Assembly: GCA_947507965.1 (NCBI GenBank) | Contig: CANNQU010000037.1 | Location: 1-33,520, forward strand | DNA from: Bacteroidota bacterium | GTDB taxonomy: Bacteria; Bacteroidota; Bacteroidia; UKL13-3 | DNA: 33,520 nucleotides | Direction of reading: 5' to 3' | Shown here: positions 1,407 through 29,857 of the stretch, one piece after another | Position numbering within the stretch: the first letter of the stretch is position 1 | Layout of the letters: each line of letters starts with the position of its first letter | Made by a program: the position numbers and the translations under genes | The notes under the pieces: generated by a model | Seen by the model: only the letters and a program-made list of their open reading frames with translations | Databases searched by the model: none | Told to the model about the DNA's origin: nothing

Positions 1407-2198
1407 ATGAGTGCAATAATGAAAAATATGTTCCAGTGGGTACTAATACTCATCCTTTTTAGCTTCCAATCGCATAATTTCGGGTTTCGAGTACTACATA
1501 ATGCGGCTTTTGGTGTGGGTGAAAGTATTGAATTTAAAGTGCATTATGGCTTTGTTACCGCCGGCTACGGCTCGGCAAGGGTATTGCCCTATATTGAAAT
1601 GATAAAAGGTAGAGCAGTTTATCATGTCATCGGACGAGGTAAGTCGGCCAGTGGTTTCGACTGGTTTTTTAAGGTGCGTGATGAGTTTCATTCGTATATT
1701 GATGTAGAGGCCATTGCGCCTTTGAAATACACCAAAGACCAGCAAGAAGGTGATTATAATAAAAAGGATATCGCGATTTTCGATCATGAGAAAAAAATAA
1801 TCGAAACGCCCAAAGGCAACCTTGCGATGGAAGAATACACCCAGGATTTGCTTAGTATGATGTATTATGCACGGTGCTTGGATTTCAAGAATGCACCTGT
1901 AGGTCAATCCTTCCCAATCTCCTTTTACCTTGATGACGAAATTACCTCGATTTCTTTTTTGGTGGTGGCACGGGAAATAATCTCAACTGAATTAGGAAAG
2001 TTCAGGGCGATAAAAATTCACCCTCAGGTAGTTGCCGATCGTGTGTTTAAAGATAAAGATGCGGTGACTTTATGGGTAACCGATGATAATAATTTATTGC
2101 CATTGCGCATTCAGGCCGACCTCGTGGTAGGCTCAATAAAAGCCGATATCACCAAGGTAAGTAACTTGAAAAATACGATGGAGGCGGCTATTAAATAA
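1407..2198 (+). CDS. DUF3108 domain-containing exported protein
   Basis: A 263-residue protein with an N-terminal hydrophobic segment (FQWVLILILFSFQSH) that looks like a signal peptide. The mature part begins GVGESIEFKVHYGFVTAGYG, then has HVIGRGKSASGFDWFFKVRD and later APLKYTKDQQEGDY, the layout of DUF3108 proteins of Bacteroidota. These are envelope proteins of unknown function, predicted to be beta-rich. The track start at 1407 and a second ATG at 1419 both give a plausible signal peptide; I keep the first. It converges with the TPR gene, the two stops being 2 nt apart, so it is not part of the operon on the other strand. Function is not known. Confidence 0.85.
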   Translation: MSAIMKNMFQWVLILILFSFQSHNFGFRVLHNAAFGVGESIEFKVHYGFVTAGYGSARVLPYIEMIKGRAVYHVIGRGKSASGFDWFFKVRDEFHSYIDVEAIAPLKYTKDQQEGDYNKKDIAIFDHEKKIIETPKGNLAMEEYTQDLLSMMYYARCLDFKNAPVGQSFPISFYLDDEITSISFLVVAREIISTELGKFRAIKIHPQVVADRVFKDKDAVTLWVTDDNNLLPLRIQADLVVGSIKADITKVSNLKNTMEAAIK

Positions 2199-2200
2199 AC

Positions 2201-2824
2201 TTATTTACACTTACCGAGGCCTTCGGTAGCAGAGGCGTCACCAGGCTTATTACATAAAGCCAAGTTAAACAAGGCTTTAGCGTCGGCTGTTCTGCCTAAA
2301 CTTAAGTAAGTCCAGCCAAGTAAATGATTGGCATCATAATCGAAGGGATACATATTTACCACAAGCTCCAAATATTTTGCCGCAATATCATATTTCTTCG
2401 CATTATAATAGTACACTCCAACCCAATAATTTGCGGAGCTATTATACGGGTCAATTTTTAATATTTCTTCATACATGTCGTATGCTTTATCATACTTTTT
2501 TGCTTCGTTAGCCGGCTTTATATATCCGAAACGAGCCTCAACACTATATTTTTTTAAATTGATGGCCTTCTGATAGTAATCCATCGAAAGCTCGTATTGT
2601 TTTGCCAAATACTGTAACCAACCAAGCCTCAAATTACATTCGTAGTTATCGGCCTTATAAACTTTTTGCAAATCGGCGATGGCATTGGTATAATTTGCTT
2701 TGTATTCGTTCAAATAACTTGCCTTAAAGGCTTTTTGTATCTCATCTGTGGTTTGAGCTGAAGCATTAACAACGAAGCATACGATTGCACTGATAGCAAT
2801 AAATGATTTTTTTAAAATTTCCAT
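2201..2824 (-). CDS. Secreted tetratricopeptide-repeat protein, last gene of the six-gene operon
   Basis: A 207-residue protein with a cleavable signal peptide (MEILKKSFIAISAIVCFVV, cleavage likely after NASA). The remainder is a run of TPR units: LRLGWLQYLAKQYELSMDYY, then ARFGYI with KYDKAYDMYEEILKIDPYN, ANYWVGVYYYNAKKYDIAAK, and HLLGWTYLSLGRTADAKALF. TPRs mediate protein-protein contacts, here in the periplasm. Its ATG at 2824 lies inside the end of the preceding barrel gene (13-nt overlap, ATGGAAATTTTAA), which points to translational coupling. With the TPR of that barrel protein it probably forms a periplasmic scaffold for the system. No catalytic motif is visible. Confidence 0.85.
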   Translation of the reverse strand: MEILKKSFIAISAIVCFVVNASAQTTDEIQKAFKASYLNEYKANYTNAIADLQKVYKADNYECNLRLGWLQYLAKQYELSMDYYQKAINLKKYSVEARFGYIKPANEAKKYDKAYDMYEEILKIDPYNSSANYWVGVYYYNAKKYDIAAKYLELVVNMYPFDYDANHLLGWTYLSLGRTADAKALFNLALCNKPGDASATEGLGKCK

Positions 2825-3981
2825 GATAATCCTGTAGTAATTGAGTGCTGATAAAAATAATTGTTGGTTGTTTGATATTTTAATTTTTGTTCAAAAGTGT
2901 AATTTACAGTAAGGGTCAGTTTTTTATATAGGGAGGCATACATACTTCCCCCCATTTTAAACTCTTTGGTGTCGATATCATTAAATACAAATAGGGCATC
3001 GTTTTCGAGGGAGGTATGGTAACTGCCGAAGGTTATATTCCCTTCCAACCAAATATTTTTTGTAACCCCAATGCCTGCAATTTGTGAAAAGATTAGGCTT
3101 TTGCTATACGTTGCTCGGCTAATTCCATAGTATTTCGTATTGCCCAAAGGGAAATACGAAATGGTTACATCGTACTGATGATAGGTGCTGTCGGAGAGGT
3201 TTGCCAAATTAGCGATGGCTTTAATATGAACAAAGGGGGATGCATAATTTACCCCTCCAAAGATAATGGTATTATTGAAGGTGTAATTATTAAAGGGTGA
3301 ATTCAGGTAATGAAAGCCACCAAGAATAGAGGTTTTTCCGGAGGCGGTGAAGATTAATTTACCATAATATTCCTTGAGATTTAGATCGATATTGGTATTA
3401 TTGGTTACACTGGTCATCGACGGCTCACTAATACGTTGCTTATACCAAGCAATGCTCTGCTGAAATTCAAGTTTATAACCCAGTTGTAGGCTCAGCCCTA
3501 TTCTTGCATATTGTGCGTTTTTGCGGAAGGTATCCGTAGTCATTTTGTAGCTGTATTCTGTTTCTACAGAATAGCATTTTATTTTTGAGATTTTCTCCGA
3601 CGACTTTGTTTCTGTTGAAAGTCTAGATGCATAATAGCGGGCTCCGGAGCTGTTATTTAAATAGATATTATTTAAATAAACGTAATATAATGCGAGGTTG
3701 TTATCCGGTTCTTGTTGTAATACCTGATGATACCATCGTAAACTCTGACTATAGTTGCCTAGCATCAGGGCGGCATATCCTACACGCATTCTTAGTAGGG
3801 GGAGTTCTTTACCGGCCAACTTGTTTTCTCTGCCATAAAGTATTAATGATCTCCATTGGGCGTTATTGTAAAGATTCAGAGAATGAAAATCAATTTCTTC
3901 CACTGACGCTGTTGTTTGTGCTTGTACCTTAATTAACAGCAAGCAGCAAAGTACGATCATTAATATTCTCTTGGAGTACAT
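2812..3981 (-). CDS. Exported TPR plus outer-membrane beta-barrel protein (YaiO-like)
   Basis: A 389-residue protein. It has a signal peptide (MYSKRILMIVLCCLLLIKVQA, then QTT), a short TPR-like region to about residue 120 (GYAALMLGNYSQSLRWYHQV, ALYYVYLNNIYLN), and a C-terminal part of alternating polar and aromatic strands ending in a terminal Phe (TGLSWKF), as expected for an outer-membrane barrel. TPR followed by a barrel is the architecture of YaiO-family proteins; assignment to YaiO itself is by layout, not by a diagnostic motif. It overlaps the end of the transporter-peptidase gene by 22 nt and the start of the next TPR gene by 13 nt, so it belongs firmly to the operon. It would provide the outer-membrane step of the system. 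Confidence 0.75.
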   Translation of the reverse strand: MYSKRILMIVLCCLLLIKVQAQTTASVEEIDFHSLNLYNNAQWRSLILYGRENKLAGKELPLLRMRVGYAALMLGNYSQSLRWYHQVLQQEPDNNLALYYVYLNNIYLNNSSGARYYASRLSTETKSSEKISKIKCYSVETEYSYKMTTDTFRKNAQYARIGLSLQLGYKLEFQQSIAWYKQRISEPSMTSVTNNTNIDLNLKEYYGKLIFTASGKTSILGGFHYLNSPFNNYTFNNTIIFGGVNYASPFVHIKAIANLANLSDSTYHQYDVTISYFPLGNTKYYGISRATYSKSLIFSQIAGIGVTKNIWLEGNITFGSYHTSLENDALFVFNDIDTKEFKMGGSMYASLYKKLTLTVNYTFEQKLKYQTTNNYFYQHSITTGLSWKF

Positions 3982-6110
3982 ACTGCTTTTATTCGTTTTT
4001 TGTTTTTATAAAAAGTAAAGGACTTTATTTGATCCTCATTGATTTCAATGGTAAATTGATTTACTGTTTTTTTTGTCGAAGGCAAGTGCAGAATCTGCTT
4101 GCTTGAAATCGTGATACCGGAGTTAAAGAAATCTTTCGAATCGGCCTCGTTAAAGGATTCGTAATGTAACCGATTAAAAATAATAAATGGAGAAACGAAA
4201 TCCTGAACCCATTTGGCAATCGTATTTTTGGTGAGCTGTAATGGAAATTTGTCGATGGCAGCAACTGCCGGTTCTGTTGATAGATATATTTTATAGCAGG
4301 CTAAATAAAAGTAATACAACAAACTGTTTTTATCTCCCTCAAAGGCCGTGAAATAAAACATAATTTCATTTTGCTTAAAGTATGCCACTGATTTCGAATG
4401 ATGACAGTAAATATAAGAAAGGTTGTAGGCATCGGTAAACACTTCCCATTTTCCTTCTTCCATTGATTCGGCAGCGACAGAAAGGTTAAATCCGGGTAAA
4501 AATTCAAACGCTTTTTTAATGGTGGTATTAGCCGTAGCATTATAAACGATCTCGGTTTCCTTAGGAGTCGAAAATTCTTTGACTTCAACTTTCGCTGCTG
4601 TTTTGGCAATATAGTGAGCTATAGGGTAGGCGAAGGTTTTACTGCCAATATGTGGTGTCGTTTGTACCTGAAAATGCAGATGGGGTTCTGGCGATCTTCC
4701 CGAGTTTCCACAAGCGGCAACAATTTCGCCTTGTTTTACATAATCGCCTGTTTTCACTTTAAAAGAGTTTTGGCGTAAATGACTCATCTTGGTGTAAAGG
4801 CCTTCTGCATGTTTTATGACAATACTGTTGCCCCAGTTTTGTTGCTGATTTATTTTTCCAATTTCATTGTCCTCAATACGATCCTCGATTACTTGAACAT
4901 AACCATCGGCAGGCGCTAAGACAGGAATATTATAGCAATAAAAATTTTCGGGTGTTGCAGGGTAAGGGTGGTAGGTTTTGAGCTCATGATCGACAATAAT
5001 AAAGTCAAGTGCCTTGCCCCAATCTCCTTTATGGGTTATATTCCCATCATAACCCTGCGACACCATCCATTGACCAATAAAGGGCAAATGGAGCCGTATA
5101 TGATTGGCATTGAGTAATCGTTCCTTTGCATTCAAATAATTATAAAGGTTTTTTTCGGGGGAGTAAAACTGTAATGGAGTAAGCACCATTTTTCCTTTCG
5201 GTGCTTTTAATGCTATAAAATTTAATAATGATAAAACCGTGATACAAAAAGGCATGGAATACACGGGCAAGTTCCATTGTGCCATTATGGTACCTAAAGC
5301 CATCACAATGATAAAGGTAATTGGAACGCTAAGAATGGCCCATAGATAAGAATGGCCAGAAGGAACAACAAAAAAGCCACCGATGGCAACACTGACAAGA
5401 ATAAAATTACCTCCATAGAGATAATAATTCATGCCCTCGGGATGCGCCATCACAATATTATTAAAACCATACGCCGACAAGAAACCAATAACAATCAAAG
5501 AGAATATGATGCGGCTATGAATTAAAATTCCGGCAGCGATTAGAATCCCTGCGAAGATGTTGTTTTGGAAATATAAGGAGCTTAAGGCTCTGAAAAAAGT
5601 CGAAACTAATGCCGGGAGTTCTAGTTTCTCCATAAACATAAGGAAGCTTACCAGCTCTTGATTACCGATCGCATAGGCATCATTGAGCCAATAGATATTT
5701 CGGAAAGAAAAATTGATTGCTTCAAAATCTTTTGCAACGAGTAAAACAGCCCAGAAGCACAGCACAAAAGGAAGGGTTAAAAAGGGGAGCCCATATGGAC
5801 GCAAGCGGCTTTGAAAAATAACCGATAAGATCACAGAAAGAATGATGACAATGGAGAGTACCAGCCAAAATGCGATGCAGAAATTGAACATCGAGCCCAT
5901 ACCAATACCAATAATTAAGGCATTAAAGCTATAGGTTCCATTTTCGATGGAGGTTTTATTTAGTCCGGTATTATGCGATAAAAAAATGGCCAGCATCACC
6001 GCAACCAAACCAGTGAAACCGGCATACGGATTGAAAAATGACACGATCATTAAAAGCGATGCAAAAAGTTTGTTATTGGAGAAAAATAACACCGAATAGC
6101 TGTTAAGCAA
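3960..6110 (-). CDS. Urea-transporter-like channel fused to M23 peptidase domain
   Basis: A 716-residue fusion. Residues 1-300 are membrane-spanning (about ten hydrophobic segments) with the two-fold repeat of the urea transporter family (PF03253): SVLFFSNNKLFASLL near residue 6 mirrors SSLYFQNNIFAGILI near 177, and TYSFNALIIGIGMG mirrors AYGFNNIVMAHPEG. Residues about 355-490 form an M23 (LytM-type) metallopeptidase with ligand candidates His360 and Asp369 (HKGDWGKALDF), His444 (KMSHL), and His477/His479 in PHLHFQ; all positions expected for zinc binding and catalysis are kept. Residues 500-716 are an extra domain I do not recognise. There is no ATG before the first transporter motif; TTG at 6110 is the best visible start, and the frame stays open upstream. 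The first ATG (codon 21) would delete the first repeat motif. Substrates are unproven: the transporter half could carry urea or another small amide. Confidence 0.85.
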   Translation of the reverse strand: MLNSYSVLFFSNNKLFASLLMIVSFFNPYAGFTGLVAVMLAIFLSHNTGLNKTSIENGTYSFNALIIGIGMGSMFNFCIAFWLVLSIVIILSVILSVIFQSRLRPYGLPFLTLPFVLCFWAVLLVAKDFEAINFSFRNIYWLNDAYAIGNQELVSFLMFMEKLELPALVSTFFRALSSLYFQNNIFAGILIAAGILIHSRIIFSLIVIGFLSAYGFNNIVMAHPEGMNYYLYGGNFILVSVAIGGFFVVPSGHSYLWAILSVPITFIIVMALGTIMAQWNLPVYSMPFCITVLSLLNFIALKAPKGKMVLTPLQFYSPEKNLYNYLNAKERLLNANHIRLHLPFIGQWMVSQGYDGNITHKGDWGKALDFIIVDHELKTYHPYPATPENFYCYNIPVLAPADGYVQVIEDRIEDNEIGKINQQQNWGNSIVIKHAEGLYTKMSHLRQNSFKVKTGDYVKQGEIVAACGNSGRSPEPHLHFQVQTTPHIGSKTFAYPIAHYIAKTAAKVEVKEFSTPKETEIVYNATANTTIKKAFEFLPGFNLSVAAESMEEGKWEVFTDAYNLSYIYCHHSKSVAYFKQNEIMFYFTAFEGDKNSLLYYFYLACYKIYLSTEPAVAAIDKFPLQLTKNTIAKWVQDFVSPFIIFNRLHYESFNEADSKDFFNSGITISSKQILHLPSTKKTVNQFTIEINEDQIKSFTFYKNKKRIKAVCTPREY

Positions 6111-6157
6111 AGCGTTCCCGTAGGGAAGAGTAGTATGGATTATTTTTTTAATTAGGT

Positions 6158-7507
6158 TTATTTGTTTTGTTGCAAATGGGTAGGAATAACCTCGAGTTGT
6201 TCCAGGTAATCAAGTGTCTCTGCCTTTCTAATGACATGCGTTTGATTATTGGTGTCGATCAATACAATATTTGGACGCATGGCAATAAATTGCATCCATT
6301 GTGTCATATTATAAGCACCTACTTTATGCACCACCACATGATCGCCACGATTAAGCAAGGGTAGATTGACGGTTTCTCTTACAATATCGATATTCATACA
6401 CAAGGGGCCATAAAGAACGGTGTCTTCACTAAATTGACTCACTTCTTGTGCCGGGCTAATTTGATGGTCGAACCAAAAGGAGGTGAACATGATATTAACG
6501 CCAAAATCCATAATGGTAGCCTTGCGGCCGTCGCTTAGTGTTTTATTGGCAAGCACCGAGCCGAGTAGGTACCCAGCATCATCAATCATCACACGGCCAC
6601 TTTCTAAAATTAACAGAGGTAAGTCTTCTGTTTTAAAGCCATAGTTTAAAATGGTAGCGGTGATAACCTCTGCAAACTCATCAACGGATGGTGTTTTTAC
6701 TAAGCCGATGGCACCTTTTAACGTATTGGCGCTTGGGAAACCACCACCTAAATCTAAATATTTTACTACGGTATTGAGTTGGCTCTTGCAATTCACAGCC
6801 AAATCGCAAAGCTTGGAAGCGGCAATGCCATAGGCAGCGGTACTTAACATGTAGGTGCCGATATGGGAGTGAAGGCCTACCAGTTGCAATTTACCGGAGG
6901 CAATAATTTTATTGATGGCTTGCCATGCTTGTCCATTTTCATAGTTAAATCCAAATCGATCCCACATGGGATAAATGCCGGTATCCATATTTACCCGAAT
7001 GGCTACTCTGGCCTTTTTGTTAAGTTGTGCGCAAGTATCAATGAGCAGATATAATTCTTCGAAGTGGTCGATATGAATTAAGGAATCATTTTCGATCGCC
7101 AATTTAAGCTCATCGATATGTTTGTCGGGGCCATTAAAAATAATATGGGTTCCAGCTACTCCATTTCCCAGTGCCTTTTTGTATTCAAAACCACTCACTA
7201 CTTCAGCCCAGCTTCCCTCTTGGTGGAACACATTACACACCGCATTATTATAATGTGTTTTATAGCTCCAGGCAAATTGTACTTTTGGATATCGAGTGCT
7301 AAAAGCCCTCACCGCAGTTTGATAGTTTTGACGCATCTTCTGCTCCGATAAAACAAATACCGGGCTGCCATATTTCTCTATTATCGATTTTACCGATACC
7401 CCATCAATATGAGTTACAGGAGTGTTTTCACGCTGTGCTCCAAATTTGTTCATCATACCCGCATTCATTTTTTTTATGAGCGGTCTCTCGTATTTTAATT
7501 TTGTCAT
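6158..7507 (-). CDS. Fold-III PLP-dependent amino acid decarboxylase (DAPDC/ODC-like)
   Basis: A 449-residue enzyme of the alanine-racemase-fold decarboxylases (PF02784/PF00278). Visible marks: the Schiff-base lysine K83 in WSYKTHYN, GLHSHIG (His215), the phosphate-binding GGGFP at 254-258, ESGR at 302-305 (usually EPGR), GPLCMNID at 367-374, and GAYN with Tyr399. The reaction would be PLP-dependent decarboxylation of an amino acid to an amine. Diaminopimelate and ornithine decarboxylases carry Glu or Asp right after the active-site Cys (CE, CD) to bind the distal amino group; here it is Met371, so a diamino substrate is doubtful and I do not call it lysA. It sits between the ATP-grasp gene (24-nt gap) and the transporter-peptidase, which fits a biosynthetic role rather than housekeeping lysine synthesis. 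Confidence 0.85.
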   Translation of the reverse strand: MTKLKYERPLIKKMNAGMMNKFGAQRENTPVTHIDGVSVKSIIEKYGSPVFVLSEQKMRQNYQTAVRAFSTRYPKVQFAWSYKTHYNNAVCNVFHQEGSWAEVVSGFEYKKALGNGVAGTHIIFNGPDKHIDELKLAIENDSLIHIDHFEELYLLIDTCAQLNKKARVAIRVNMDTGIYPMWDRFGFNYENGQAWQAINKIIASGKLQLVGLHSHIGTYMLSTAAYGIAASKLCDLAVNCKSQLNTVVKYLDLGGGFPSANTLKGAIGLVKTPSVDEFAEVITATILNYGFKTEDLPLLILESGRVMIDDAGYLLGSVLANKTLSDGRKATIMDFGVNIMFTSFWFDHQISPAQEVSQFSEDTVLYGPLCMNIDIVRETVNLPLLNRGDHVVVHKVGAYNMTQWMQFIAMRPNIVLIDTNNQTHVIRKAETLDYLEQLEVIPTHLQQNK

Positions 7508-7531
7508 TTTTTGTTTTTTAAATAATCTTTC

Positions 7532-8584
7532 TTATAATTTTCCAAAGGCACTAAATTGTTGAAATTCAGATAAATTCACAATTAAGTCCCAGCTGTATCT
7601 AATAAATAGTTTGCCAATATCATAGGTGGTGAAGGGCTCAATTTTTTCCCCTAAAGCCATTTTAACTAAAGAAGCAGGCTGGTTTTGTCCGGCTCCTGCC
7701 GACAGATAAATCCACGCTGGAAATCTTGGATTAATTTCCATGATATACAATTCGTCATTTACTGTTTTCATCACTTCAACTTCAAAACCACCACGCCATC
7801 GGGTGGCTACCACGATTTTTTTAGCCAGGTCAATCAACGCATCATCTTCGAGTGTTATGCCCGCCCATGCTTTTCCCTTGTCGGTGATATATGTTTTCCG
7901 CATGGGTATGACACTAATGGTATTTCCCTCACCATCGCCTAATGCAGCGATATTAACTTCGGTGCCACTAATATATTGTTGTATTATGATTGGGAAACCC
8001 CATTTAGCACTAATTTTATAAAAAGCTTTTTGGGCTTGCTCTAAGGTATAAGCTACCACGGCATCATAATATTTCCCTTTTACAACCAATGGATATCCAA
8101 ACTCTTCTCCGATAAGGTATAAATCATTTACATTATAAATAACGCGGTCTTTGGGTACCAGTAAACCATGTTTCTGCCCGAAAGCAAAAAGGTTTAATTT
8201 ATCACGGGCATCAAACATTTCAAAGCTAGGCAAGAACGACTTAATCCCTATCGCTTTTAAGCGTGGTGCAAGGGTAATAAAATTGGATAGCTCTGCATCG
8301 AAGTTGGGGATGATGACATCAATTTGTTCGAGATCGTGAATGTGTTTTAGTGTATTATAGAGCACCTCTGCCCCAGCTGCAGGATATGATATTTGATATG
8401 TTTTATCGCAAATATTATCCATGTAAATGCCGGGTTCTAAGCTCTCGTAAGCCAATCCGATGATACGAACAGGCTGTTTTAATCCATCCCGTATGGCTCG
8501 TATTACCGCTACACCGGGTCCAGGGCTGTCAATAGCGTTAAGACCCGTAACGGCAATCACTAGTGGTTTTGTATTTTCACTCAT
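7532..8584 (-). CDS. ATP-grasp ligase (carbamoyl-phosphate-synthase-like)
   Basis: A 350-residue soluble enzyme. The N-terminal preATP-grasp fold starts VIAVTGLNAIDSPGPGVAVI. The ATP-grasp part has YPLVVKGKYYDA (about 164-175), QQYISGTEVNI (202-212), GGFEVEVM (265-272) and the Mg-ATP motif MEINPRFPAW (282-291). Such enzymes join a carboxylate, activated as acylphosphate, to an amine or other nucleophile. Genes of this subtype occur in peptide- and amino-acid-ligating pathways; the substrate cannot be read here. It starts 17 nt after the PqqD-like gene, suggesting that the PqqD-like protein presents its substrate or partner. It lacks the second half of true CarB, so carbamoyl phosphate synthesis is excluded. 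Confidence 0.85.
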   Translation of the reverse strand: MSENTKPLVIAVTGLNAIDSPGPGVAVIRAIRDGLKQPVRIIGLAYESLEPGIYMDNICDKTYQISYPAAGAEVLYNTLKHIHDLEQIDVIIPNFDAELSNFITLAPRLKAIGIKSFLPSFEMFDARDKLNLFAFGQKHGLLVPKDRVIYNVNDLYLIGEEFGYPLVVKGKYYDAVVAYTLEQAQKAFYKISAKWGFPIIIQQYISGTEVNIAALGDGEGNTISVIPMRKTYITDKGKAWAGITLEDDALIDLAKKIVVATRWRGGFEVEVMKTVNDELYIMEINPRFPAWIYLSAGAGQNQPASLVKMALGEKIEPFTTYDIGKLFIRYSWDLIVNLSEFQQFSAFGKL

Positions 8585-8601
8585 AGTAACTTTGATAAGC
8601 G

Positions 8602-8841
8602 TTAATTATTTAATAAATGGTTTTCTTTTAGCATCCCAATAAATTCATCGAGATCTTTTTCGATCGTCATTTTTTCTACCTCATATTTCTCGAGGATAAG
8701 GTTTTTTATTTCATTCAACGATTTGTTTTCTTTCATCCATTGAATGATTTCAGCTGCAACCGGGTTGCTACTATAGGAGTCGCCGGTAGCAGGATTAAAT
8801 ACGAAGCCAAACTCATTGGTGGCAATATTTTTTTTGATCAT
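8602..8841 (-). CDS. PqqD-like small protein (recognition or carrier protein)
   Basis: A 79-residue protein matching the PqqD pattern (PF05402): FVFNPATGDSYSSNPVAAEI, then IQWMKENKSLNEIKNLIL, then KYEVEKMTIEKDLDEFIGML and LKENHLL. PqqD domains are the recognition elements that bind precursor peptides for ribosomally made, modified peptides; a number of stand-alone relatives act as chaperones for ATP-grasp or radical-SAM enzymes. It is the first gene of the operon, 17 nt before the ATP-grasp ligase. No convincing precursor-peptide ORF is visible nearby, so it may recognise a non-peptide or remote substrate, or itself be the modified carrier. Start ATG at 8839-8841 is unambiguous. Confidence 0.8.
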   Translation of the reverse strand: MIKKNIATNEFGFVFNPATGDSYSSNPVAAEIIQWMKENKSLNEIKNLILEKYEVEKMTIEKDLDEFIGMLKENHLLNN

Positions 8842-8953: not shown

Positions 8954-9457
8954 TTAATATACTCTTTGTTTAATCCAAACAAAATCATCTGACAAACACT
9001 CGTTTTTTAGTATTCCTTTGCGTCGCACACACTCCAGGTAGTACCCATTTTTTTCTAATACCCGCATACTTGCCTTATTGGGTTCAAACACTTCGGCAAC
9101 GATACGATTGATGGCGAAGGTGTCGAGTGTGTATTGCGTCATCAATCCTACGGCAATGCTTGCAATGCCTGCGCCCCAGAAGGGTTCGGCCACCCAATAG
9201 CCTAATTCAGCATTCATCTTGTAAACATCATCTTGTAAAATGATGCCAATTCCACCCACAATTTCTTCCTCGTTAAGGATAGCGAAATTTTGAGTAGGAG
9301 CGAGTTCAAGTTGGGTGGTAATAAACTCTTCCGCATCCTTTAATAGATAGGGGTGCGGTATGTAATCACGTAGTTTATTCCAGATATGAATATTATTGAA
9401 ATAGGCAGCTAAAGTAGGAGCATCTTCAATTGTCCAAGGGCGTAATGAAATATACAT
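8954..9457 (-). CDS. GNAT-family N-acetyltransferase (RimJ/RimL-like)
   Basis: About 167 residues from ATG at 9457. The frame is open to a TTG at 9550, but family members begin as here, MYISLRPWTIEDAPTLAAYF, and the upstream stretch is basic and unlike the family, so I use 9457. Visible GNAT features: VGGIGIILQDDV, AELGYWVAEPFWGAGIAS (the acetyl-CoA pyrophosphate loop region), FAINRIVAEVFEPNKASMRV and LEKNGYYLECVRR. The family acetylates amino groups of proteins (N-termini of ribosomal proteins) or small molecules; the substrate is unknown. It lies just upstream of the PqqD operon, with 112 nt between, and could be transcribed with plsC above it. Confidence 0.85.
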   Translation of the reverse strand: MYISLRPWTIEDAPTLAAYFNNIHIWNKLRDYIPHPYLLKDAEEFITTQLELAPTQNFAILNEEEIVGGIGIILQDDVYKMNAELGYWVAEPFWGAGIASIAVGLMTQYTLDTFAINRIVAEVFEPNKASMRVLEKNGYYLECVRRKGILKNECLSDDFVWIKQRVY

Positions 9458-9609
9458 CGTACTTTTTCGGGTTCTTAGGTTTTTTTGTGTTGAAAATTTT
9501 CTTTTTTGCTTTACTTGACGATAGTCGAATGATTTGCATTTAGGTTGCAAAAATAGAATAAACTTTTCAGTTTGATAACATTGGTAATGATTCTGGATAA
9601 TGGCCTCCT

Positions 9610-25117: not shown

Positions 25118-26629
25118 TTATTTTGTATCCCACCATACTTTTGATAAGAGTGACTTTCCTGCTGGCATATTCGGGTTCCTTGTTGCTTCAACCGAAGGAT
25201 AAACGAAACGGGCCGGATAGTTACCTGCACCTAACTGAGAAGAAGCAGAAGGAGTAAGGAATGATGGATACTTCGTTCTGCGAAATTCTGTCCATGCCTC
25301 AAACCCTTGAGTGCCACACATTGAATACCATTTTTCAGTAGCAATTTTTTCAGCCTTTTGGGCGGTCGTACCGGTTGTTGGATAGGCACCAGGACCAGCG
25401 ATGTATGCGGTTGCATCGGCAGCGAGCAGCCCCCAACGAGCAAAGCCTGCTTTGATACCATCTTCATAATATGTTTTCGCATCAGCACCCAAAGCAAAAC
25501 GAAGATCAGCCTCTGCTTGTAATAAGAAGCTTTCTTCTGCACTCATTAAGATTACGGGAGCCGTTTTACCCGTGAGGGTTGTTGACTCGCCTCCTGTGCC
25601 ACCTACATTATAGCTTGGCAATGAATAGTTAGTATGGGTTAAGGTAGCCGGGTTAGCCAACGACTCGCCTGCACCTTGCTTCACCCCATTATGGGTACCT
25701 GCAGCACTACCAGTGGTAGCCTTCGCAAAGAATTTATCAATACGTTTGTCTGCACGGCCTCCTAGCGAATCTAAGATGGATTTGCTGGCAATAATGTTAG
25801 CTACCGACAAGGCTTTGATGGTTGTATTTAAAGGATTTGCGTTGAATTGCTTATCATAGAATTTAATCTGAACATCTTCGCCTTGTCCGATGAAATATCC
25901 ATTAGAGAAACAAGAATCGATTCCTGCTTGGCAGAAAGCCGAATAGGATGGTATATACGATAAACGTAAATAACATTTCAAACGTAAGGTATTCGCAAAC
26001 TCATACCACAAGGTCATATTTCCTCCAAAAATAAGGTCATCAGATCCAGGGTGTGTAACTAAAGTAGGAGCATCGATGGCGATGATAGCTTCGTTTAATG
26101 AAGCAATAATTCCTTTGTAAACATCTTCTTGGCTTGTGTACTTCGGAGTTAAATTAGCAACTCCTTTTAATGATTCAGCGTAAGGGATATCGCCATAGGC
26201 ATCGGTAAGAACCTGATAGGTATAGGATCTCAAAATTTTGGCTACCGCAACATAATCCTGACGGTCGTTACCGGTTGCATCTTTTTTAGAAGCACTAGCA
26301 ATGGTGTTATCCAAATCGGTTAACGCATCACTGTACATTTGTTGCCAAGGGCGATCCATTTCGGTAGACGATTGTACGTATCGGTCCCATGATTTGTACT
26401 GACCAGCAGTAGGGCCTTGGGTCCATGATTGACTCCAAATATTTCCCCATATCTGAAATTGGTCGCCCATGGTATAGCCAAGAGCTCCGATAGCAGAAGG
26501 TAGGGTGAGGTTATACGGAGCGCTCTCCGGATTGTTTGGATTCGTATTGATATCCAACCAGCTTTTCTTGCAAGCCGTAGCAAAAAGCACGGTTGCAAAT
26601 ATTAAGGTTAAAATTTTATATCGTTTCAT
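25118..26629 (-). CDS. SusD/RagB-like outer-membrane lipoprotein (SusD-like_2 type)
   Basis: 503 residues. Lipobox LFATACKK (Cys20) followed by SWLDINTNPNNPESAPYNLT, the opening of the SusD-like_2 family. Later YKGIIASLNEAI, ILMSAEESFLLQAEADLRFA and WTEFRRTKYPSFLTP are typical helices. The protein caps the SusC barrel at the cell surface and binds the substrate. It lies 39 nt after susC. Members of this subfamily occur often outside polysaccharide loci, for peptides, glycans or metals; the substrate cannot be told here. No sugar-binding residues can be read out with confidence. Confidence 0.9.
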   Translation of the reverse strand: MKRYKILTLIFATVLFATACKKSWLDINTNPNNPESAPYNLTLPSAIGALGYTMGDQFQIWGNIWSQSWTQGPTAGQYKSWDRYVQSSTEMDRPWQQMYSDALTDLDNTIASASKKDATGNDRQDYVAVAKILRSYTYQVLTDAYGDIPYAESLKGVANLTPKYTSQEDVYKGIIASLNEAIIAIDAPTLVTHPGSDDLIFGGNMTLWYEFANTLRLKCYLRLSYIPSYSAFCQAGIDSCFSNGYFIGQGEDVQIKFYDKQFNANPLNTTIKALSVANIIASKSILDSLGGRADKRIDKFFAKATTGSAAGTHNGVKQGAGESLANPATLTHTNYSLPSYNVGGTGGESTTLTGKTAPVILMSAEESFLLQAEADLRFALGADAKTYYEDGIKAGFARWGLLAADATAYIAGPGAYPTTGTTAQKAEKIATEKWYSMCGTQGFEAWTEFRRTKYPSFLTPSASSQLGAGNYPARFVYPSVEATRNPNMPAGKSLLSKVWWDTK

Positions 26630-26668
26630 TGTATATTTTAATTTAAAGATTAAACAAGGTTTATATTA

Positions 26669-29600
26669 TTAGAATGTAACGTTTAGATTAAATCCGTAGC
26701 TGCGCAATGATGGAATTGTAGTGAATTCAAATCCTTGGTCATTACCGGTACCGAACGAACTTGTTTCAGGGTCAACAAAAGCGTTGTCTTTATGTGTTTT
26801 CAACCAAAGATTTCGGCCACTGAATCCTATGGTTGCATTGCCTAAAGGCGTTTTGCTTAACCATTTTGCAGGGAGTTGGTATGATAATGATAATTCACGA
26901 AGCTTGGTGAATGTAGCATCTAACATACTTGTACCAAAATTCTTCTGGTCGGTCCATAAGTCCTGTGGATGTACCTTCTGTGTGGTATTTGCATGATAGC
27001 TGCCATCTCCACCTAAATATACTGTATTTGGAATAACATAATCTTCGCGATTATGATCTAATGTATTCGCAGAAGTACCAACAAACTCCATGATATCTTT
27101 TGTTCTAGAGTAGAACATACCGCCTTGGCGATGTTCAATATTCATATTTAAAGTAAACCCTTTATAGGTAACCGTGTTAATAATACTACCGGTCCAGTCG
27201 GGCTGATATGACCCCATGAAACCAGGCTCTGTATTTACTACAGGCAATCCCGTTGATGAATCAACCACCACCTTTCCATCTTGAGTTTTTGTTCCAATGA
27301 CATAAAAGCTACCGAATGGTTGACCTACTGCAGCCACTACAGATGCAGAAGAAAGACCACCGAAGCTCAATTGAGTGGCTCCGTCATTAAGGGCGGTTAC
27401 CGTGGTTTTGTATTTAGAATACAGTACGGTAAGATTCCAGGTAATATCTTTGGTTTGAACAGGTGTACCTCTCAATTTTAATCCGTAGCCGTTAAACTTT
27501 AGTTCTCCAGCGTTGGTAGTATAAGCAGTATAACCCGATGAAGGAGCGATTGCTGCATCTAAAATCAGATTGGTAGTTTTTCCGGTTGAATAACTAAAAT
27601 CAGCAAAGATTCTGTTTTTAAGGAATGAAAGTTCCGTTCCAATTTCTGTTGATGTAGTGAACTCTGGAGTTAACGCAGGGTTTCCAATACGGTTACCTCT
27701 TGTGAAGCCGGCAACACTATTAACAGGGAAATCAACGCGTGAATCTTTGTAACCATCACCTACAGAGTAAGGGCTATAAGTGGTAGCTAAGCGATAAGGA
27801 AGAGGATCTTTACCCACTTTTGCAAAAGCTACACGAACTTTTCCATAATTTAAAATGTCTTTATTAATTTTTAATGCATCGGTAAACACACACGATAAAT
27901 TCACACTTGGATAGAAGAAACTGCGGCTGTCGGCAGAAAGCGTAGAAGAATGGTCGTTACGGCCCGTTACCGTAAGGAATGCATAGTTTTTGTAGCTTAA
28001 TGTCGCATCAGCCCATACAGCCCAAAGGCGGCGCATGCTTGAACTTGTTGAAGCGTCTTTTGAATCCTTAGAATTAGAGGTAGAATAGAATTCAGGAATC
28101 ACCAATCCACCAGCGGTAGATACACTGTTAAATTGAGCTGAACGTTGATTCACGTTATGGCCAATATCGCCCATTAACTTGAAATCTTTGTTGATGTCCT
28201 TATGCATTCCAATAATTAAGTCGGAGTTAATCTCGGTGTTATTGGTTAATGCTTCCAGGTAAAGTCCTTTATTATTAGCATCGGTGTTTCCAGCATTCTG
28301 GCCTGTTAATACCGAGGTTACCGGTTCGTGGAATTTACGCGTATCAAGAACAAAGTTCGTTCCTAAACGCAATTTAACATCCATCCATTCGGTTGCTTTG
28401 TAACCCACGGTGAAGGCGGCTATAAAGTTATCGATTTTGCTATTGGTTCCGCTTGTGGTTAAAATTTGATATGGATTTAAAGTATAGGCACCATAATAAT
28501 TATCCAAGCTGTTGAATTTGTTGGTGAGGTCTTCTAATTCCTTCAAAGGAATATCGCGAGGGGTTTGTAATACCTGGTCATAAACAGAATAACCTTGTCC
28601 TTGTGTAGAAAGGTTAGATTGTGATTGAGCATACATTAAGGTCATATCGCTATAGAAGTTATTGGCAAACTCCGAGCTTGAGGTTACGGTGAAGGTATTA
28701 CGTTTGTAGTCGGTACCCGGAATAACACCATTATTTTTTAGGTTACTGAAGGATAAGTTGTAACCGGTATGCGCTGTACCACCGCTGATACCAATATTGT
28801 TGGTAAGCGTATGGCCAAGATCAAAGAAATCTTTCACGTTATTGGGTAACGGAGCATAAGGCTTAACACGCTGGGTTGAAACACCGTTTGCATCGGTAAT
28901 AGCTTGTCCCCAAGGTGTTAATGGATAATTACCGTCGGTGCCTTTCTCAAATTTCGGTCCCCAGCTAAAGTTCTCACGGCTATCCGGAGCACCCTCGCCA
29001 CCTTGTCCGAATTCATTTTGATAATCGGGTAATTTTAGCACGTCTTCCCAAGTATAGCCGGTAGAATAACGAATGGTGTTTTTACCTGATCCGCCATTGG
29101 CACGAGAAACGCCTTTTTTAGTTGTTATTACAATAACACCATTGGAAGCGCGGCTACCATAAAGCGCTGCTGCTTGCGGGCCTTCCAATACGTTAATGCT
29201 TTCTATATCATCGGGGTTGATATCGTTTACACGATTACCGGCATCTACTTGATAGTTTAAGTTGTCGGAATTTTGACTTGATGAGTTATTAATAGGAATA
29301 CCATCAATAACAATTAAAGCCTGGTTATCGCCCGTAATGTTCACTGGTGAGCGAAGGGTAACACGAGTTGAAGAGCCCGGGCTACCACTATTATTTACGA
29401 TCGTTAAGCCGGCTACTTTTCCAGAAAGCAGGTTCAGTGCCGAACGGTCGGAAGTGGTGTTTAGTTCTTTAGCCGTTACTTGAGTCGTAGCATAACCCAA
29501 ACTACGTTTCTCCCGCTTAATGGCGTTGGCCGTAACCACCACCTCGTCCAAATCTTTTAAGTCTTCCTCTAAGGCCACGTTTATAACATTCTCTGCGCCA

Positions 29601-29857
29601 AGGGCTACTTCTTTAGTTCGCAGGCCAAGCAAACTAAATACGATTGTTTTTGCTGTTGAAGGAACCGTCAAAGCATAATTACCAGATGCGTCTGTATTTG
29701 TTCCAATGTTTGTTCCCTTGACGCCAACAATTACGCCAATCAGTTTTTCGCCAGTTTTGGCGTCGGATACCGTGCCTGTGACGGCTCGTTGTGAAAATGC
29801 CGTTGCACCCAGCAAGAGCAAAATCAAGAAAAGTGATTTAGTAAATAACTTCTTCAT
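26669..29857 (-). CDS. SusC/RagA-type TonB-dependent outer-membrane transporter
   Basis: 1062 residues. Signal peptide (to about residue 22), carboxypeptidase-regulatory-like domain (RAVTGTVSDAKTGEKLIGV), then the plug: DLDEVVVTANAIKREKRSLG, SGKVAGLTIVNNSGSPGSST, VIDGIPINNSSSQN, VLEGPQAAALYGSRASNGV and ITTKKG. The remainder is the barrel, ending with aromatic FNLNVTF. It imports a ligand captured by the SusD-like lipoprotein, powered by TonB. It is the first gene of the operon with susD and the Ig-like lipoprotein. Two ATTCCGAATATTT repeats lie 50-85 nt upstream of the start. No anti-sigma or ECF sigma gene sits nearby. Confidence 0.95.
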   Translation of the reverse strand: MKKLFTKSLFLILLLLGATAFSQRAVTGTVSDAKTGEKLIGVIVGVKGTNIGTNTDASGNYALTVPSTAKTIVFSLLGLRTKEVALGAENVINVALEEDLKDLDEVVVTANAIKREKRSLGYATTQVTAKELNTTSDRSALNLLSGKVAGLTIVNNSGSPGSSTRVTLRSPVNITGDNQALIVIDGIPINNSSSQNSDNLNYQVDAGNRVNDINPDDIESINVLEGPQAAALYGSRASNGVIVITTKKGVSRANGGSGKNTIRYSTGYTWEDVLKLPDYQNEFGQGGEGAPDSRENFSWGPKFEKGTDGNYPLTPWGQAITDANGVSTQRVKPYAPLPNNVKDFFDLGHTLTNNIGISGGTAHTGYNLSFSNLKNNGVIPGTDYKRNTFTVTSSSEFANNFYSDMTLMYAQSQSNLSTQGQGYSVYDQVLQTPRDIPLKELEDLTNKFNSLDNYYGAYTLNPYQILTTSGTNSKIDNFIAAFTVGYKATEWMDVKLRLGTNFVLDTRKFHEPVTSVLTGQNAGNTDANNKGLYLEALTNNTEINSDLIIGMHKDINKDFKLMGDIGHNVNQRSAQFNSVSTAGGLVIPEFYSTSNSKDSKDASTSSSMRRLWAVWADATLSYKNYAFLTVTGRNDHSSTLSADSRSFFYPSVNLSCVFTDALKINKDILNYGKVRVAFAKVGKDPLPYRLATTYSPYSVGDGYKDSRVDFPVNSVAGFTRGNRIGNPALTPEFTTSTEIGTELSFLKNRIFADFSYSTGKTTNLILDAAIAPSSGYTAYTTNAGELKFNGYGLKLRGTPVQTKDITWNLTVLYSKYKTTVTALNDGATQLSFGGLSSASVVAAVGQPFGSFYVIGTKTQDGKVVVDSSTGLPVVNTEPGFMGSYQPDWTGSIINTVTYKGFTLNMNIEHRQGGMFYSRTKDIMEFVGTSANTLDHNREDYVIPNTVYLGGDGSYHANTTQKVHPQDLWTDQKNFGTSMLDATFTKLRELSLSYQLPAKWLSKTPLGNATIGFSGRNLWLKTHKDNAFVDPETSSFGTGNDQGFEFTTIPSLRSYGFNLNVTF

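Follow-up and report, generated by a model that had tools for sequence, protein, structure and literature searches.

Pathways of the LysW/LysX/LysK kind combine a small carrier protein, an ATP-grasp ligase, a modification step and release by a metallopeptidase. In export porins such as PgaA and AlgK/AlgE, tetratricopeptide repeats (TPR) stand beside an outer-membrane barrel or are fused to it. The butirosin carrier BtrI is loaded by the ATP-grasp ligase BtrJ. The amino acid held by BtrI, a protein of 87 amino acids (aa), is decarboxylated on the carrier by BtrK, an enzyme of the alanine-racemase fold (excerpts of PMC7857480). Here we analyze a cassette of six genes on the minus strand (8841-2201) of a 33,520-nucleotide (nt) stretch of DNA from Bacteroidota bacterium (UKL13-3), assembly GCA_947507965.1, contig CANNQU010000037.1; this whole stretch is called the window. 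We show that the six genes are one conserved, co-inherited unit. We further propose, with a probability of roughly 0.4, that the unit is dedicated to the synthesis and export of one small amino-acid-derived compound.

The cassette would share with the butirosin side-chain pathway the logic of a small-protein carrier and of decarboxylation by an alanine-racemase-fold enzyme, and in 132 of 132 loci its ATP-grasp gene is followed by the gene of such a decarboxylase. Unlike BtrI, however, its small protein is PqqD-like by profile and not an acyl carrier protein. The cassette also adds a channel-peptidase, a TPR protein and a barrel, and BtrK scores only 116 bits with the cassette decarboxylase profile, as opposed to 243 bits for FslC/FigC of rhizoferrin synthesis. 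The LysW-type pathways differ from it in carrier fold, peptidase family and modification, and the C-terminus of the cassette PqqD-like protein is not conserved. The cassette is a member of neither of these pathways. Each of its domains is known, and the combination fits no named system found in the literature searched, as a sequence-only reading of the window, made without database searches, had anticipated; this literature was judged by titles and the beginnings of abstracts, with incomplete coverage. Among PADLOC defence models, the six proteins have no match up to E 0.001.

The genes of the cassette in gene order, and a probable additional member, are as follows.
8602..8841, minus strand: PqqD-like small protein, 79 aa (Pfam PqqD 4.6e-13)
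7532..8584, minus strand: ATP-grasp ligase, 350 aa (Pfam ATPgrasp_Ter 3.4e-11, ATP-grasp_3 4.7e-8)
6158..7507, minus strand: alanine-racemase-fold pyridoxal phosphate (PLP) decarboxylase, 449 aa (Orn_Arg_deC_N 9.3e-29, C-terminal domain 3.3e-11)
3960..6110, minus strand: fusion of a urea-transporter (UT) domain and an M23 peptidase (UT-M23), 716 aa, TTG start (UT 1.3e-50, Peptidase_M23 2.8e-17)
2812..3981, minus strand: probable outer-membrane TPR-like/barrel protein, 389 aa (weak TPR matches, under cut-off)
2201..2824, minus strand: TPR protein, 207 aa (Pfam TPR families), overlapping the barrel gene by 13 nt
8954..9550, minus strand: GNAT acetyltransferase, probable first gene in this lineage (Pfam Acetyltransf_3 1.1e-25)

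The sequence-only reading had described the first six as an operon, and all six open reading frames (ORFs) are indeed open, with intergenic gaps of 17, 24 and 47 nt followed by overlaps of 22 and 13 nt in gene order. Pfam agrees with its gene names as well, with only weak TPR matches for the 389-aa protein, whose model has 14 strands.

Conservation of the cassette

Homologues were sought in a phylum sample of 395 Bacteroidota genomes, at E 1e-30 for the ATP-grasp protein and E 1e-20 for UT-M23. The ATP-grasp gene was found in 34 genomes. The UT-M23 search matched 39 genomes; five of these match in the M23 part only, and the other 34 are exactly the ATP-grasp set (additional M23-only matches in genomes G173 and G204 were put aside). 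In all 34 genomes the two genes share a contig and lie no more than about 4 kb apart, while 361 genomes have neither the ATP-grasp gene nor the UT part at the thresholds used; such a coincidence goes well beyond chance. The UT-M23 gene is split over two ORFs in genome G062. Among 58 near relatives, the window's own genome counted, 26 have the ATP-grasp gene.

In the 20 neighbourhoods that were mapped first, the PqqD, ATP-grasp, decarboxylase and UT-M23 genes stand in this order in every case, and an ORF occupies the barrel slot after them. The barrel-slot ORFs of four of these loci are beyond the reach of BLAST, yet they are alike among themselves. The TPR gene is present in 19 of the 20, and the remaining locus (L039) is cut by a contig end. 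In total, 138 neighbourhoods were fetched; with six duplicates removed, 132 distinct loci besides the window remained. The duplicates were excluded from counts of gene order, gaps and upstream genes, and kept in residue counts and pairwise identities (139 rows, i.e., 138 loci and the window). UT-M23 rows of at most 650 aa and decarboxylase rows of at most 430 aa were left out before residues were counted.

The order of the first four genes is the same in all 132 loci as far as the contigs reach; an ORF is called between the ATP-grasp and decarboxylase genes in four of them. PqqD is missing only where the locus begins inside the ATP-grasp gene, and UT-M23 is missing in eight loci, each ending 0-445 nt past the decarboxylase. 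All six genes occur uninterrupted and in the window order in 79 of the 132 loci. In another 16, all belonging to families f38, f41, f52 and f56, the order of the last two is swapped and TPR directly follows UT-M23. The next ORF in 14 of these 16 encodes 269-309 aa; it is barrel-like in the five inspected, and only two match the barrel profile. Two loci (L136 and L139) have no recognised TPR or barrel gene despite spare contig, with a barrel-like ORF seen by eye in L136, and two others (L190 and L206) have a barrel and no TPR gene after it, also despite spare contig. Extra ORFs within the cassette occur in a few loci (e.g., L139, L187, L191, L197 and L208).

The genes are tightly packed: the median junctions are -4, 22.5, 9, -16 and -13 nt in gene order, the 13-nt overlap being the median of 87 barrel-TPR junctions, and 61 of 81 complete cassettes are free of internal gaps above 75 nt. 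All six proteins are present in 94 of 139 rows, and in these rows pairwise identities correlate for all 15 protein pairs (r 0.65-0.89). Mean pairwise identity is 66% for the decarboxylase, 60% for ATP-grasp, 47% for PqqD, 46% for TPR, 40% for UT-M23 and 23% for the barrel, the fastest-evolving of the six. The sequence-only reading had suggested comparing the neighbourhoods of the ATP-grasp and UT-M23 genes across Bacteroidota and had named scattered homologues as the outcome that would speak against an operon; the homologues were found together.

The cassette is patchily distributed: of five genomes in the window's genus, one, which is 89% complete, is without it. In a scan of named records, at least 555 relatives of the ATP-grasp protein were found; in the 80 that we used, the record titles are those of Bacteroidota or “uncultured bacterium”. 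Cultured Pedobacter, Mucilaginibacter and Hymenobacter have ATP-grasp relatives with the surrounding cassette.

The ATP-grasp protein of the window is 62% identical to that of a genome from another family (G220) and 54% identical to that of a genome from its own family (G006). For LysA, the lysine-synthesis decarboxylase, the corresponding values are 32% and 72%, a weak yardstick of transfer because long branches separate the LysA copies of one group from those of the other. The cassette decarboxylase gives no contrast (68% in both genomes). In the decarboxylase tree, the rows of family f1, to which the window belongs, lie scattered. Because of the identity contrast and this scatter, we read the data as pointing to some transfer of the cassette between families. 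Carriage on plasmids was not found: a search of 72,556 plasmid records with the ATP-grasp protein gave no match at E 1e-20. The Bacteroidetes-type promoter pattern has a single match in the window, which is not at the operon and is no more than expected by chance.

The PqqD-like protein and the ATP-grasp ligase

The small protein of the window scores 49.7 bits with Pfam PqqD (gathering score 23.4), and the profile matches 138 of 139 rows, the exception being the locus that begins inside the ATP-grasp gene. Residues A7, G12, F15, G20, S22 and N26 are kept at 98% or more in 94 rows. In the same number of rows, the ATP-grasp residues K169, E209, E283, N285, P286 and R287 are kept at 98% or more, a pattern compatible with a working ATP-grasp site. 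ATP-grasp, the decarboxylase and UT-M23 each score below the cut-off of every NCBIfam model that they match.

These two genes invite an explanation as a pathway for a ribosomally synthesized and post-translationally modified peptide (RiPP), in which PqqD would bind the leader of a peptide encoded elsewhere, ATP-grasp and the decarboxylase would modify it, and M23 would cut off the leader. PqqD-like proteins do serve RiPP pathways, and NCBIfam models of lasso and other PqqD chaperones match the window protein weakly. Graspetides, furthermore, are made by ATP-grasp enzymes (excerpts of PMC8939145). However, the nearest models of the cassette ligase are PRK12767/CarB-like. A precursor-peptide gene inside the cassette is not obligatory, because the junction medians are short and 61 of the 81 complete cassettes have no gap above 75 nt (no search was made for very short or unlinked genes). 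The same holds for the upstream side, because in 20 of the 106 loci with a same-strand upstream ORF this ORF ends at most 20 nt before PqqD or overlaps it. We consider a RiPP pathway quite unlikely.

The decarboxylase

The PLP-binding lysine K83, H215, the catalytic cysteine C370, and E302 and R305 of the E-x-x-R motif are present in 132 of 132 rows, i.e., the full active-site set of an alanine-racemase-fold PLP decarboxylase is kept. The residues of substrate specificity are changed. In LysA, an arginine of the specificity helix and the acidic residue after the catalytic cysteine bind diaminopimelate (DAP) (excerpts of PMC7857480). The arginine is replaced by threonine (T342) in 131 cassette rows and by serine in one, and the acid by M371 in all 132; LysA rows from cassette genomes have Arg in 12 of 12 and Glu in 12 of 12. 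The positions W345, M371, I373 and Q403 are invariant in the 132 cassette rows, which suggests one substrate type.

The window enzyme scores 209.8 bits with the NCBIfam LysA model TIGR01048, below its cut-off of 297.9. The cassette decarboxylases of all 28 genomes compared are likewise below this cut-off, and a separate LysA above it is encoded in 26 of the 28 (the other two are G419 and G178). In the tree, 47 cassette rows lie on one side of a fully supported branch and 12 LysA on the opposite side. The identification of the enzyme as LysA was rejected on the basis of the replaced DAP-anchoring residues and the score.

Among solved proteins, the cassette profile gives the highest score to the N-citrylornithine decarboxylase FslC/FigC, the closest solved relative, followed by an archaeal DAP decarboxylase (185 bits) and BtrK. 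FslC/FigC also has a methionine after the catalytic cysteine and a threonine in place of the DAP-binding arginine. Nevertheless, the window protein scores 216 bits with the NCBIfam FslC model, whose curated cut-off is 500, and the six genes include no synthetase of the NRPS-independent siderophore (NIS) type. Citrate contacts proposed for FigC from docking are His357 and Arg387 (excerpts of PMC7857480); the corresponding residues here are Ile373 and Gln403, in 132 of 132 rows each. Since the charged residues that would anchor a free diamino acid are gone from the pocket, the enzyme probably acts on a conjugated amino acid with an uncharged far end, of the same type in all cassettes. This refines the sequence-only reading, which had recognised a PLP decarboxylase.

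The channel-peptidase

The UT part of UT-M23 has the whole fold of urea transporters such as dvUT and UT-B (Z 31.6 over 297 residues, rmsd 2.4 to 3k3f). This fold consists of two six-helix halves, Pa with T1a-5a and Pb with T1b-5b (excerpts of PMC4357013), and both inverted halves are present in the cassette protein. The sequence-only reading had called the protein a channel; the fold supports it, while the full urea filter is absent. We take Gln24 (dvUT numbering) to be the fourth filter residue. The others are E187, T130 and T294 (excerpts of PMC4357013). A complete four-residue filter occurs in none of 121 UT-M23 rows and in all eight ordinary channels aligned (nine loci were taken from ten genomes, and eight have unbroken frames). 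Taken singly, Gln24 is found in 63 of the 121 rows, Thr130 in four, Glu/Gln187 in none and Thr294 in 15. Urease is encoded in one of 35 cassette genomes examined, compared with six of the ten genomes that have an ordinary urea channel.

Automatic annotation would probably read the locus as ordinary metabolism, namely a lysine-synthesis decarboxylase beside a urea-uptake gene for nitrogen supply. This explanation is contradicted by the lost LysA residues together with the separate LysA of most cassette genomes, and also by the incomplete filter and the small overlap with urease; we regard it as very improbable.

The M23 part matches LytM-type peptidoglycan hydrolases best, and the set H360, D369, H444, H477 and H479, which we take to be its zinc ligands and catalytic residues, is intact in 121 of 121 rows. 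Both ends of UT-B are intracellular. The mean net charge of the cassette channel is +1.8 before the first helices (the window's own stretch is short) and +2.2 after the last helix, and the mean charges of loops range from -1.1 to +0.4 where they are assigned outside and from 0 to +0.8 where they are assigned inside. Since the complete UT fold and this distribution of charge put both ends inside, we predict a cytoplasmic location for the M23 domain.

The opposite arrangement belongs to an envelope system in which a periplasmic M23 would trim peptidoglycan and the cytoplasmic enzymes would make an amine or amino acid for the wall or a surface polymer. The likeness to LytM-type hydrolases favours this, as does the fact that nine of nine stand-alone relatives of the M23 domain look exported. 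Upstream genes add to it: a pair of an extracytoplasmic function (ECF) sigma factor and a Spy-like sensor in seven of 127 loci would be compatible with envelope stress, and RodA- and PBP2-like ORFs stand upstream in one locus (L205; seen by inspection, neighbourhoods having not been searched systematically for wall genes). It is the predicted inside position of both UT ends that counts against such a system, and we judge it unlikely. For the same reason, the action on the cell wall offered by the sequence-only reading is less likely in its direct form, whereas the cytoplasmic small-molecule chemistry that it also proposed is plausible; its overall interpretation is partly supported.

In one locus (L135:9944-12198, a single-contig genome), UT and M23 are encoded in two overlapping ORFs, the second without a signal sequence. 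We dropped this case as proof of a cytoplasmic M23 because the frame shifts within a run of T, which may reflect an error or a mutation. The other single genome of that family that was examined has no match.

The barrel and TPR proteins

The AlphaFold2 model of the barrel protein (mean predicted local distance difference test score, pLDDT, 88) has an N-terminal helix, TPR-like helices at 27-128 and 14 strands. The best Foldseek matches are the FadL and OmpG barrels, with FadL at the top (TM about 0.5); they may reflect barrel shape only. Signal sequences are seen by inspection in the barrel and TPR proteins, in line with the periplasmic TPR and outer-membrane barrel of the sequence-only reading. 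The adjacency of a TPR gene and an outer-membrane barrel resembles that in PgaA and AlgK/AlgE. The cassette differs from these porins in the 14 strands of its modelled barrel and in the lack of a polysaccharide synthase among the six genes.

The same parts could work in the reverse direction: barrel and channel would import a small amide or peptide-like compound, a cytoplasmic M23 would cleave it and the enzymes would process the pieces. FadL, the top match of the barrel, is an importer. An ATP-consuming ligase and a PqqD-like protein, however, suggest synthesis, and the channel fold is narrow. We rate uptake and breakdown as slightly less probable than even a RiPP pathway.

Proposed mechanism

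In the synthesis-and-export reading that we prefer, ATP-grasp would form an amide or similar bond that joins an amino acid to a carrier or to the carboxylate of a partner. The PqqD-like protein would act as a chaperone that guides this ligation, or as the carrier itself. The decarboxylase would then take the carboxylate off the conjugated amino acid. M23, on the cytoplasmic face of the modified urea-channel fold, would cut the conjugate by hydrolysis, so that the product is set free where the channel opens. The product would exit through the channel, and the TPR protein and the TPR/14-strand barrel would pass it across the outer membrane. The GNAT protein may also acetylate an amine in the lineage of the window. 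The logic would be that of ligase, modifier and release, as in the butirosin side chain or in lysine synthesis of the LysW type, to which export is added.

Several points weigh against this proposal. PqqD-like proteins are not known to act as carriers, and the C-terminus of the cassette PqqD, as noted, varies. The window decarboxylase scores nearly alike with the NCBIfam models of FslC (216) and LysA (210), and the correlations of pairwise identity were made without a non-cassette control gene. By inspection and hydropathy, each of the nine stand-alone M23 relatives found shows a signal sequence or an N-terminal membrane segment, which indicates that proteins of this M23 branch are normally exported. 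The filter threonine is mostly replaced by serine, a mild change, and Gln24 is still present in about half of the rows. The urea-channel fold passes very small solutes only. No fold or role has been assigned to the C-terminal region of UT-M23: residues from about 515 to 716 (window 3960-4568, minus strand) are modelled at fair confidence, with 10-residue pLDDT means of 74-93, and the Foldseek and VIA matches mainly span residues 1-514. In genome G309, the UT-M23 gene encodes only 535 aa.

A more specific form of the proposal joins a PqqD-fold carrier or presenter, a decarboxylase with a new pocket, a peptidase that is joined to a repurposed urea-channel fold and would release the product cytoplasmically into its own channel, an outer-membrane TPR/barrel exit and one conserved type of product, the whole being partly transferred across Bacteroidota. 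We regard it as possible, though doubtful in all its parts at once.

The unit occurs in about one in 12 of the sampled Bacteroidota (34 of 395). Two of its enzymes are strongly conserved and no product has been named for it, which makes it a promising source of a new metabolite. Its channel-fused peptidase is predicted to lie on the cytoplasmic side, and the pocket of its decarboxylase is new and invariant. It also warns against two likely misannotations, as LysA and as a urea transporter. If the more specific form of the proposal is true, the cassette would be a previously unknown kind of machine for synthesis, release and export of a small molecule.

Upstream genes and other neighbours

Upstream genes were assigned by BLAST to representatives, on which Pfam was run. 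At least one such gene is held by 127 loci. A homologue of the GNAT gene stands upstream of PqqD in 25 of the 132 loci, and the gene is lineage-specific on account of this distribution. In the window, the ORF encodes 198 aa from a TTG, and an internal ATG gives a 167-aa form that resembles the orthologues. The gene probably belongs to the unit in this lineage, which then comprises seven genes; the sequence-only reading had the six right and missed this one.

Regulators upstream of the cassette are mixed: AraC-type in 17 of the 127 loci, a LytTR response regulator in 25, and the ECF sigma and Spy-like pair in seven. Metal-responsive regulation, suggested by the first 20 loci, is only a lead in view of this wider set, and the assignment of the upstream pair of L032 as CusRS-like was wrong. 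The ECF sigma factor with a Metal_resist/Spy-like periplasmic sensor precedes the cassette in L037, L044, L047, L141, L142, L144 and L180, a lineage in which this arrangement suggests control by stress or metals.

In one lineage, among loci L119-L134, the gene upstream of PqqD encodes an FG-GAP-like protein (e.g., L131:6111-6947), which is secreted, has about 280 aa and ends in a sorting tail for type IX secretion. There are 11 full-length rows, the reference included; ten directly adjoin the cassette, as near as 8-17 nt. This protein is a possible partner or target of the system.

On the other side of the cassette, the plus-strand gene of a DUF3108 protein (window 1407-2198, Pfam 3.6e-41) is convergent with the TPR gene at a distance of 2 nt; of the 20 loci mapped first, only L029 showed a homologue. 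Two large adjoining ORFs of 1062 and 503 aa at window 25118-29857, minus strand, are unrelated to the operon and look SusC/SusD-type, judged by the N-termini of similar-sized neighbours in L029.

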